Source of the DNA: Roseovarius pelagicus
GTDB lineage: Bacteria > Pseudomonadota > Alphaproteobacteria > Rhodobacterales > Rhodobacteraceae
Direction of reading: 5' to 3'
NCBI RefSeq assembly: GCF_025639885.1
Contig: NZ_CP106738.1
Location: 434,001 to 498,000 of the forward strand
Length of the DNA stretch: 64,000 bases
In this document: positions 25,243 to 30,296 of the stretch, piece after piece
Layout: every line of letters starts with the position of its first letter
Numbering within the stretch: position 1 is the first letter of the stretch
Translations under genes and position numbers: made by a program
Notes under the pieces: generated by a model
Told to the model about the DNA's origin: nothing
Databases searched by the model: none
The model's input: the letters and a program-made list of their open reading frames with translations, nothing else

Positions 25243-25257
25243 GTGACTGGTAGACTG

Positions 25258-25449
25258 ATGTCGCCACGCGTTGTCTGGGCTTTCAACTTCACCGGCTGGA
25301 TCCTGTTCACATTCTCTGCCGTGGGCTTTGTCTGGACCACATGGCGCGCTGGCGACATGATCGGTTTGGCCGCCAGCCTCTTTTTCCTGATTGCCTGTCT
25401 GGTTTTTCTGGTCCCGGTTTGGGCACACCGGCCCGGTCGTCGCGACTAG
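25258..25449 (+). CDS. Small two-helix membrane protein, hypothetical
   Basis: A 63-residue protein consisting mostly of two hydrophobic helices (about VVWAFNFTGWILFTFSAVGF and MIGLAASLFFLIACLVFLV) with a short basic tail PGRRD. The ATG at 25258 is chosen. An in-frame GTG at 25243 directly after the preceding stop is possible and would make the two genes contiguous. It is probably co-transcribed with the NifU-like gene. No family recognised. Just beyond its end lies a terminator that reads in the opposite direction. Confidence 0.6.
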   Translation: MSPRVVWAFNFTGWILFTFSAVGFVWTTWRAGDMIGLAASLFFLIACLVFLVPVWAHRPGRRD

Positions 25450-25451
25450 CC

Positions 25452-25490
25452 AAAAAAATCCGCCGCACATCCGGGGATGGATGGCGGCGG
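25452..25490 (-). terminator. Strong intrinsic terminator reading leftward
   Basis: CCGCCGC (25460-25466) and CATCC (25468-25472) pair with GGATG (25479-25483) and GCGGCGG (25484-25490), a 12-bp stem with one bulge and a 6-base loop. On the minus strand it is followed by seven T (complement of 25452-25458). It ends the transcript of the 40-residue peptide gene at 25661-25783 and anything downstream of it. Confidence 0.9.
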
Positions 25491-25575
25491 TCAGTGGGGT
25501 GCGATCCCCCATGGAACCCTGTCGTGCCGTCCGGGGGAACGAGGTAAACCCGGAGAGGACGTCGAAACAGGCAGT
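25491..25575 (-). ncRNA. Candidate structured RNA or structured 3' UTR
   Basis: Between the peptide gene and the terminator lie stacked inverted repeats. An outer stem CCTGT (25518-25522)/ACAGG (25567-25571) encloses an inner stem TCCGGG (25530-25535)/CCCGGA (25549-25554). A second hairpin GGGG (25496-25499)/CCCC (25506-25509) comes between this and the terminator. No coding frame here resembles a protein. The terminator makes the minus strand the likely transcribed one. It does not match SRP RNA, RNase P RNA or tmRNA signatures that I know; a diverged 6S-like RNA cannot be excluded. Boundaries are approximate. Confidence 0.45.
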
Positions 25576-25660
25576 GTCAGTTACGTCGCATCAGGAATGG
25601 GGACAGGAGATGCAGGCACGCAAGAGGCATGGGTCGGATCGCAGGCAGAAACTCAAAAAC

Positions 25661-25783
25661 TCAGACAAGACCGGGCAGATAAAGACCGACAACCAAAATG
25701 ATCATCAATGCCGCACATCCGATCGCGTCCCCTACGAGGGTGTCGTTTGAACGGGCGGCGGCGGTTTTGATCTGTTGGAACAT
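25661..25783 (-). CDS. 40-residue hydrophobic membrane peptide, probable LexA target
   Basis: A 40-residue peptide: an amphipathic, charged N-terminal part (FQQIKTAAARSNDTLVGD) and one membrane helix (AIGCAALMIILVVGLYLPGLV). The ATG at 25783 has AAGGA 7 bases upstream (25791-25795). I recall similar short proteins in Rhodobacteraceae, but no function. A perfect alphaproteobacterial LexA box lies at 25847-25861 and a TTGACA at 25888-25893, spaced almost as at recA, so damage-induced expression is inferred. Small SOS-induced membrane peptides are known (TisB in E. coli, SidA in Caulobacter) but share no evident sequence with it. A 170-base structured region and a strong terminator follow. Confidence 0.65.
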   Translation of the reverse strand: MFQQIKTAAARSNDTLVGDAIGCAALMIILVVGLYLPGLV

Positions 25784-25846
25784 CGAGGCTTCCTTTTCAG
25801 TCCTTAGTGTTGCCTCTTTGTTCTCATTTTCAGCGTCACCTGTAAA

Positions 25847-25861
25847 GAACTTTTTAAGAAC
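25847..25861. promoter_or_regulatory. Perfect alphaproteobacterial LexA (SOS) box before the 40-residue peptide
   Basis: GAAC (25847-25850), seven bases, GAAC (25858-25861); on the minus strand this is GTTC-N7-GTTC. It starts 63 bases upstream of the peptide start codon and 26 bases downstream of the TTGACA, where it would overlap the transcription start and block it. Confidence 0.7.
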
Positions 25862-25887
25862 ATCTGTGAACAAACAGACATTCCATA

Positions 25888-25893
25888 TGTCAA
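25888..25893 (-). promoter_or_regulatory. Consensus -35 element (TTGACA) for the 40-residue peptide gene
   Basis: TTGACA on the minus strand (TGTCAA on the plus strand). A -10 region would fall near 25865-25870 and is weak (TTCACA). It lies inside a longer inverted repeat, CAGACA at 25875-25880 and TGTCTG at 25895-25900. Confidence 0.5.
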
Positions 25894-25922
25894 CTGTCTG
25901 AAAATATGGGAAAGTTTTCTGT

Positions 25923-30296
<4,374 letters not shown>

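Follow-up and report, generated by a model that had tools for sequence, protein, structure and literature searches.

What does the short stretch of DNA downstream of recG in Roseovarius pelagicus encode, and is it part of the response of the cell to DNA damage? A preliminary description of the window, the whole 64,000-nucleotide stretch analyzed here, had proposed an SOS-induced unit similar to TisB or SidA, consisting of a LexA box, a membrane peptide of 40 residues and a structured 3′ region. All the elements that it named are present: TTGACA at 25888-25893, GAAC-N7-GAAC at 25847-25861 (GTTC-N7-GTTC on the minus strand), a 40-codon frame on the minus strand with its ATG at 25783 and its stop ending at 25661, and a 3′ region that reaches 25452 with its terminator (Table 1). 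Genes for RecG and an NAD-dependent DNA ligase precede it on this strand (25923-30103), so that it sits in a small DNA-repair neighborhood. Of the 130 family loci that were read, namely the 30 best single-sequence matches and 100 of the other listed places, 126 have recG upstream in this orientation.

Table 1 Features of the locus, in window coordinates.
Feature	Position	Strand	Basis
recG, upstream neighbor	25923..28049	-	Pfam RecG wedge, RecG domain 3 and helicase domains
Third GTTC half-site, 6 bases upstream of the box	25868..25871	-	present in 115/130 loci
LexA box GTTCTTAAAAAGTTC (GTTC-N7-GTTC)	25847..25861	-	perfect box in 127/130 family loci
TTTACA, putative -35 element	25841..25846	-	conserved directly after the box
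Inverted box-like element GAACAAAGAGGCAAC (GAAC-N7-CAAC)	25809..25823	-	conserved spacing in relatives
Ribosome-binding site AAAAGGAAG	25789..25797	-	sequence; ATG start in 130/130 loci
Coding sequence of the 40-residue predicted membrane peptide, stop included	25661..25783	-	350/390 order-sample genomes, dN/dS 0.21, AlphaFold2
Conserved structured 3′ RNA	25494..25650	-	covariance model R2 match, E 2.7e-8, query window outside the training set
Displayed motif CUGCCUG, 5′ of the closing stem	25642..25648	-	CTGCCTG in the 3′ region of 105/130 loci
Loop motif CUGUCCC	25600..25606	-	CTGTCCC in 95/130 loci
Loop motif CUGCCUG, second copy	25568..25574	-	CTGCC[TC]GT in a predicted loop in 55/64 loci having the motif
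Intrinsic terminator, GC-rich stem and T run	25452..25490	-	query fold; GCGGCGG stem and T run in relatives
Small open reading frame convergent with the 40-codon frame	25243-25449	+	

Distribution, coding frame and promoter

The peptide could be followed through the genomes of Rhodobacteraceae, as the preliminary description had proposed. A single-sequence search of 394 family genomes from 393 genera found matches in 271 genomes and 270 genera. In a sample of the order, 350 of 390 genomes, from 134 of 139 genera, had a match to a profile built from 45 sequences (A1); every genome among those listed for this sample belongs to Rhodobacteraceae. In a sample of the class, the profile matched 3 of 240 genomes, all of them Rhodobacteraceae, and the 20 non-matching genomes listed are all of other families. 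Because the matches in the class sample are confined to Rhodobacteraceae, function cannot be transferred. Relatives with the gene include Ruegeria, Phaeobacter, Leisingera, Sulfitobacter, Roseovarius, and Rhodovulum, among the best 80 of 145 confirmed loci. The gene appears to be undescribed, as had been suspected: the 120 listed of 737 homologues from a profile search of protein collections are all unnamed, hypothetical or uncharacterized proteins without a Pfam domain, the 40-residue form matches nothing in Pfam and NCBIfam, and no description was found in open-licence full-text literature. The main text of a study of LexA in D. shibae (PMC6473078) does not contain recG.

Sixteen genomes without a profile hit were examined (of 20 listed among 40), and 14 of them have the promoter pattern. 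Inspection by eye showed a frame of 31-43 codons in 13 of the 14, beginning 68-91 bases downstream of where the box starts and having a similar core, D-x-x-G, a hydrophobic run and usually L-P; at L159, which has the promoter pattern and no profile hit, no such frame was seen by eye. The profile count therefore probably underestimates how widely the gene occurs. The other two genomes, G338 and G504, have neither a peptide hit nor the promoter pattern and are possible true losses. Four genomes (G046, G440, G215, and G383) have two peptide-profile matches each, possibly second copies, and one locus, L076, is a degraded copy without the LexA box, its frame extended to 75 codons. In one genus (g24), a 31-residue form without the N-terminal helix is found in 6 of 7 loci (L164-L170); at these short-form loci the promoter is the same, and the 3′ fold is similar though shorter.

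The frame has the substitution pattern of a protein-coding sequence. Comparing 204 coding sequences with one another left 2928 pairs after filtering; their median dN/dS is 0.21, and pN is smaller than pS in 2925 of them. The sequences come from 129 of the 130 loci (L076 omitted) and 75 of 80 named loci and are not independent, as some share a genome. The entropies at the three codon positions of these sequences are 1.07, 0.63, and 1.53. This pattern argues that the frame almost certainly evolves as a protein and is a conserved coding gene. The protein search lists the gene as a 70-residue product (window 25661-25873), which is the length from an upstream TTG. We argue for a product of 40 residues instead, because the ATG is conserved in 130 of 130 loci and because of its position relative to the promoter block; exactly 40 codons are present in 108 of the 130. 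A Pfam match to Phosducin falls on the 70-residue reading, is below threshold (E 0.13) and was ignored.

The preliminary description had named a LexA box not conserved in orthologues as one finding that would speak against its reading, and the reading passed this test. Searching up to 200 bases from the ATG, we found a perfect GTTC-N7-GTTC in 127 of 130 loci, always 69-110 bases before the ATG. The three loci without it are L014, where the box is degenerate, L062, with a GTTC repeat at 6-base spacing, and L076, the degraded gene. The frequency of the box by itself is no evidence; it is conservation at a fixed place that exceeds chance. The 4.27-Mb query genome contains 61+61 boxes versus 62+60 for a reversed control pattern, and the window contains 2 versus 1.56 expected, near the chance number given earlier. 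A perfect box, in the opposite orientation, precedes recA in all 25 genomes examined and lexA in 24 of them. The lexA gene itself was found in all 25; in the one exception (L301), its start is 78 bases from the end of a contig and the scan window was misplaced. As the box is conserved here and also precedes recA and lexA, the gene is very likely under LexA control.

Aligned over 127 loci, the promoter contains a conserved block of ~65 bp, which reads about TTGTTCnCAAATGTTCTnAAAAAGTTCTTTACA-N11/12-TATGAGAACAAAGnGGCAACA. The first GAAC of the inverted element lies 27 nt past the second GTTC of the box in 112 of 127 loci, and the 4-mer 11 bases beyond this GAAC agrees with GAAC at 3 or more of 4 positions in 121 of 125. 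From this conservation, the inverted element is likely to be an additional operator, weaker than the main box and facing the other way. In L017 and L029, the element is a perfect GAAC-N7-GAAC.

The position of the -35 element had to be revised. TTGACA had been proposed, with a geometry nearly copied from recA in the same window: 26 bases from hexamer to box here and 28 at recA, and 63 and 54 bases from box to start codon. The arithmetic of these distances is right; the recA hexamer, however, is TTGAAA and not TTGACA. TTGACA occurs within 60 bases upstream of the box in only 1 of 127 loci, the query itself, and was rejected as the -35 element. The likeness to recA is a coincidence, and a fixed geometry in common with recA was dropped as well, since the last upstream GTTC and the recA box are 22 to 31 apart. 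TTTACA just after the box, replaced by TTGAC in some relatives, appears to be the better -35 candidate. We note that a simple consensus scanner found no sigma-70 promoter on either strand of 25400-25960 and no terminator.

The predicted membrane peptide

The peptide consists of an amphipathic N-terminal helix, a conserved R-S-x-x-T-L-x-x-D-x-x-G, and an uncharged predicted membrane helix that terminates in a conserved L-x-L-P motif. Residues D19, G22, L34, and P37 are invariant in the 45-sequence alignment. AlphaFold2 predicts helices at residues 2-11 and 13-39 with a mean pLDDT of 89, and a charged residue within 20-40 is present in just 1 of 108 forty-residue sequences, in agreement with the single membrane helix proposed earlier. 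The hydrophobic moment of the N-terminal helix is 0.50 as the family mean and 0.48 in the query. Since the net charge of residues 1-19 averages -0.02, the orientation in the membrane is not predicted. The helix, the hydropathy and the near absence of charge in residues 20-40 predict a very small single-helix protein located in the inner membrane.

One reading of such a peptide is the TisB-like one of the preliminary description, an SOS-induced toxin that depolarizes the membrane and is restrained by an antisense RNA in a type I toxin-antitoxin system. The peptide is indeed small, SOS-linked and hydrophobic, but its membrane helix is not amphipathic, with a hydrophobic moment of 0.05 as the family mean and 0.10 in the query, versus 0.35 in E. 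coli TisB. An antisense promoter is also missing from the expected picture: sites scoring at least 10 of 12 occur in 0 of 125 loci, the mean best score is 7.37 versus 7.46 in shuffled sequences, and the scan of 25400-25960 returned no promoter on either strand. These searches of the 125 loci and the window address consensus-type promoters of an antisense RNA antitoxin, and weaker promoters or RNAs encoded elsewhere are outside their reach. Pairing of the leader with the 3′ UTR, tried as another sign of type I control, was likewise negative, as the own pair is better than swapped ones in 53 of 117. Toxin loci are typically spread patchily, and the present locus is fixed beside recG in 126 of 130. 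Because no antisense promoter of this type was found, the leader pairing is unspecific and the helix is not amphipathic, we consider a TisB/IstR-type system very improbable here, and the proposed toxin-style RNA control was given up with it.

Another reading compares the peptide with SidA of Caulobacter, a 29-residue LexA-controlled inner-membrane protein reported to block division via FtsW and to be the primary SOS division inhibitor of this bacterium (PMC4211646). The Pfam SulA model has no match in 25 of 25 genomes, while the E. coli positive control was found; the 40-residue peptide itself has no Pfam match, to SulA or otherwise. The analogy with SidA makes a similar action plausible, and this analogy together with the lack of a SulA match leads us to propose division inhibition, for and against which we see the chances as evenly balanced. 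The peptide could instead be an SOS membrane protein of another kind, for example one that modulates a transporter, a protease or a sensor of envelope stress, or an accessory of competence or of the gene-transfer agent. Small membrane proteins often bind larger ones as their partners, and no result here points specifically to the divisome. Against such other roles stand the SulA matches in 0 of 25 genomes and the precedent of Caulobacter, whose primary SOS division inhibitor is reported to be a small membrane peptide (PMC4211646), and we regard these roles as possible rather than probable.

The structured 3′ RNA and a candidate target

The 3′ region of the query folds with a z of -5.15 and 0 of 200 shuffles folded as well, so the structured region of the preliminary description is confirmed. 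The terminator is visible in this fold and in relatives, although the consensus scanner had missed it. It was recognized in 125 of 130 loci, and a usable body without the terminator was obtained in 118. The folding z of these 118 bodies has a median of -2.49, with 79 below -2 and 1 above 0, and 109 of the 118 single-sequence folds contain a closing stem with 8 or more pairs. Bases within CUGUCCC, CUGCCUG, and UGCCUC have a probability of 0.79 of being unpaired versus 0.40 elsewhere, and the value is higher for the motifs in 110 of 113 loci. Among the loci having the respective motif, TGTCCC lies in a predicted loop in 61 of 99, CTGCC[TC]GT in 55 of 64, and TGCCTC in 43 of 50.

Covariation supports the body of the fold in sets of closer sequences. 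Such sets were needed after RNAalifold, run on the widest alignment (63 sequences), supported the terminator alone and no body structure. The first set contains 51 distinct sequences from 80 named loci, the others being without a recognized motif, terminator or frame. In this set, both sides change in 14 of 20 body pairs, and 84% of cells pair versus 74% in shuffles, whose maximum is 76%. Thirty of the 51 form alignment A4, with a structure summed from single-sequence folds. Here changes on both sides occur in 16 of 24 pairs versus 9.9 in shuffles, with 62 cells versus 21.4 shuffled and a score of 0.280 versus 0.160, and 0 of 500 shuffles scored as high. Every slid structure scores far lower, a comparison in which the structure is favored by its derivation from the same sequences. 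Model R1, made with the default structure, held 5 pairs and was discarded. A covariance model from A4 found the query locus (E 2.7e-8), recognized 32 of 40 other family loci at E <=0.01, none of the 40 being in the training set, and gave a single strong hit in the query genome (6.9e-7; next 0.56). In genomes where the peptide had no hit, it recognized 0 of 14 loci at E 0.01 (best 0.057), although similar short folds were seen there by eye. Rfam gave 0 hits at the gathering threshold and none at E 1 for 25400-25920. From these comparisons, we are highly confident that a conserved folded 3′ RNA exists. The hairpins thus described appear to be a conserved fold that displays loop motifs, more like a 3′UTR-derived regulatory RNA than the toxin control suggested earlier.

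Does this RNA act on other RNAs, or does it only protect its own message? The 3′ structure may well be a mere stabilizing tail and terminator of a short mRNA without any action in trans, a reading we take seriously while placing it on the less probable side. Strong stems by themselves could shield a short mRNA, the leader pairs with the 3′ region without specificity (the 53 of 117 given above), and the complement GGGACAGGCAG, a candidate trans target, is not enriched in the query genome (57+54 versus 62+50 for the control). Two exact matches to GGGACAGGCAG in this genome do not resemble leaders of clear genes. However, conservation falls on the loop motifs CTGCCTG and CTGTCCC (Table 1), which are the unpaired parts of the fold by the probabilities given above, and a plain tail requires no conserved loops. 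An action in trans is a real prospect in our view, if one that falls slightly short of even chances.

In Klebsiella, the LexA-controlled dinI mRNA is reported to release a 3′ sRNA, DinR, which covers the ribosome-binding site of ftsZ (PMC10907235), and ftsZ was chosen as the candidate target on this precedent. Within 25 bases of the ftsZ start in 25 genomes, CAGGC is found in 24, CAGGCGGAC in 18, and GGACAG in 16; at 36 control starts of open reading frames in the window, CAGGC is found in 1 and GGACAG in 2. CAGGC and GGACAG are the complements of GCCUG and CUGUCC in the 3′ RNA. The ftsZ ribosome-binding region CAGGCGGACAG is unusual and conserved, e.g., at L357 in the query genome. In 800 kb of the query genome, 12 of 684 predicted genes are preceded by GGACAG, 44 by CAGGC, and 2 by the joined element, one of these two being ftsZ; this gene set comes from a crude prediction with several candidate starts per gene.

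Pairing energies give a mixed picture. Against the exposed RNA segments, the ftsZ leader has a mean z of -2.19 and is below -1 in 20 of 23 genomes, with exact 6-mers in 15 of 23 versus 4.3 expected. The control leaders of recA (mean z -0.37, below -1 in 6 of 23; exact 6-mers 8 versus 5.4 expected) and lexA (-0.47, 9 of 22; 1 versus 3.9 expected) are weaker, in a comparison of three genes across genomes that are not independent, as leader and RNA are both conserved. Other results speak against ftsZ. Within the query genome, it ranks 83 of 618 by z, and by raw energy 180 of 684 for the best segment and 108 for the sum. The matched ftsZ and RNA beat swapped ones in only 11 of 23 genomes, and with the whole RNA ftsZ pairs no better than recA (duplex energies of -51.2 kcal/mol for ftsZ, -52.0 for recA, and -42.8 for lexA). 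Taken from the sequences, an action of the 3′ RNA on ftsZ is a lead that is suggestive only, and we consider it rather unlikely.

Overall reading and comparison with known systems

The explanation that we moderately favor is a stand-alone LexA-repressed SOS gene of Rhodobacteraceae, which would encode a SidA-like, division-delaying membrane peptide together with a possible regulatory RNA. LexA would sit on one strong box and, judging from conservation, probably also on the weaker inverted box across the promoter. DNA damage would release LexA and allow transcription of an RNA of presumably ~360 bases. This transcript would yield the 40-residue inner-membrane peptide, and its 3′ part would be an RNA with a covarying closing stem, hairpins showing C-rich loops, and the terminator. 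The peptide would most likely lodge in the membrane, contact the divisome and delay septation like Caulobacter SidA, a delay that would act in genomes where SulA was not found, and the 3′ RNA would probably persist as a regulatory RNA. If this is true, an SOS peptide conserved in nearly all sampled genera of a large family (134 of 139) is still called hypothetical among the listed database entries, and a single SOS transcript combines the message for a membrane peptide with a folded RNA that is itself conserved. The gene would be a possible means by which Rhodobacteraceae pause division during DNA repair, and it makes division arrest during the SOS response directly testable in this family.

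A bolder version is a division checkpoint of two tiers, in which the peptide stalls the septal machinery and the 3′ RNA stops new FtsZ synthesis, both from one LexA-repressed transcript. The loops CUGUCC and GCCUG would then cover the ftsZ ribosome-binding site, and one dual-function RNA beside recG would replace the SulA, SidA, and DinR of other bacteria. We regard this version as unlikely.

Known systems resemble the locus in different parts. TisB of E. coli and the present peptide are both short, hydrophobic and SOS-linked, but TisB is amphipathic whereas the present peptide has a conventional predicted membrane helix, and tisB is annotated beside the divergent RNA IstR in the E. coli K-12 sequence, whereas no antisense promoter was found here. 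Pos19 of Rhodobacter sphaeroides is likewise a small coding RNA of Rhodobacteraceae with a short translated frame, but it is reported to be RpoE-controlled, 219 nt long, and located between cxp and fadB on chromosome 2, not beside recG (PMC5036791). In the DinR arrangement of Klebsiella (PMC10907235), a LexA-controlled mRNA of ~350 nt is reported to combine a small protein with a 3′ RNA, and the present locus has a conserved structured 3′ RNA on an mRNA under putative LexA control. The ftsZ ribosome-binding site is the reported target there and a candidate here. Processing, Hfq binding and a target are reported for DinR and are proposals for the present RNA, and the protein encoded by dinI is unrelated to the present peptide. 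SidA of Caulobacter crescentus is also alphaproteobacterial, under LexA control (indicated by the box here), and a very small predicted membrane peptide. This comparison draws on size, control and the single helix rather than on sequence. In the class sample, profile A1 matched only Rhodobacteraceae. SidA has 29 residues versus 40 in the present peptide, and the present gene differs from the SidA plan in its structured 3′ RNA, which is conserved, and in the amphipathic helix at the N terminus of its peptide.
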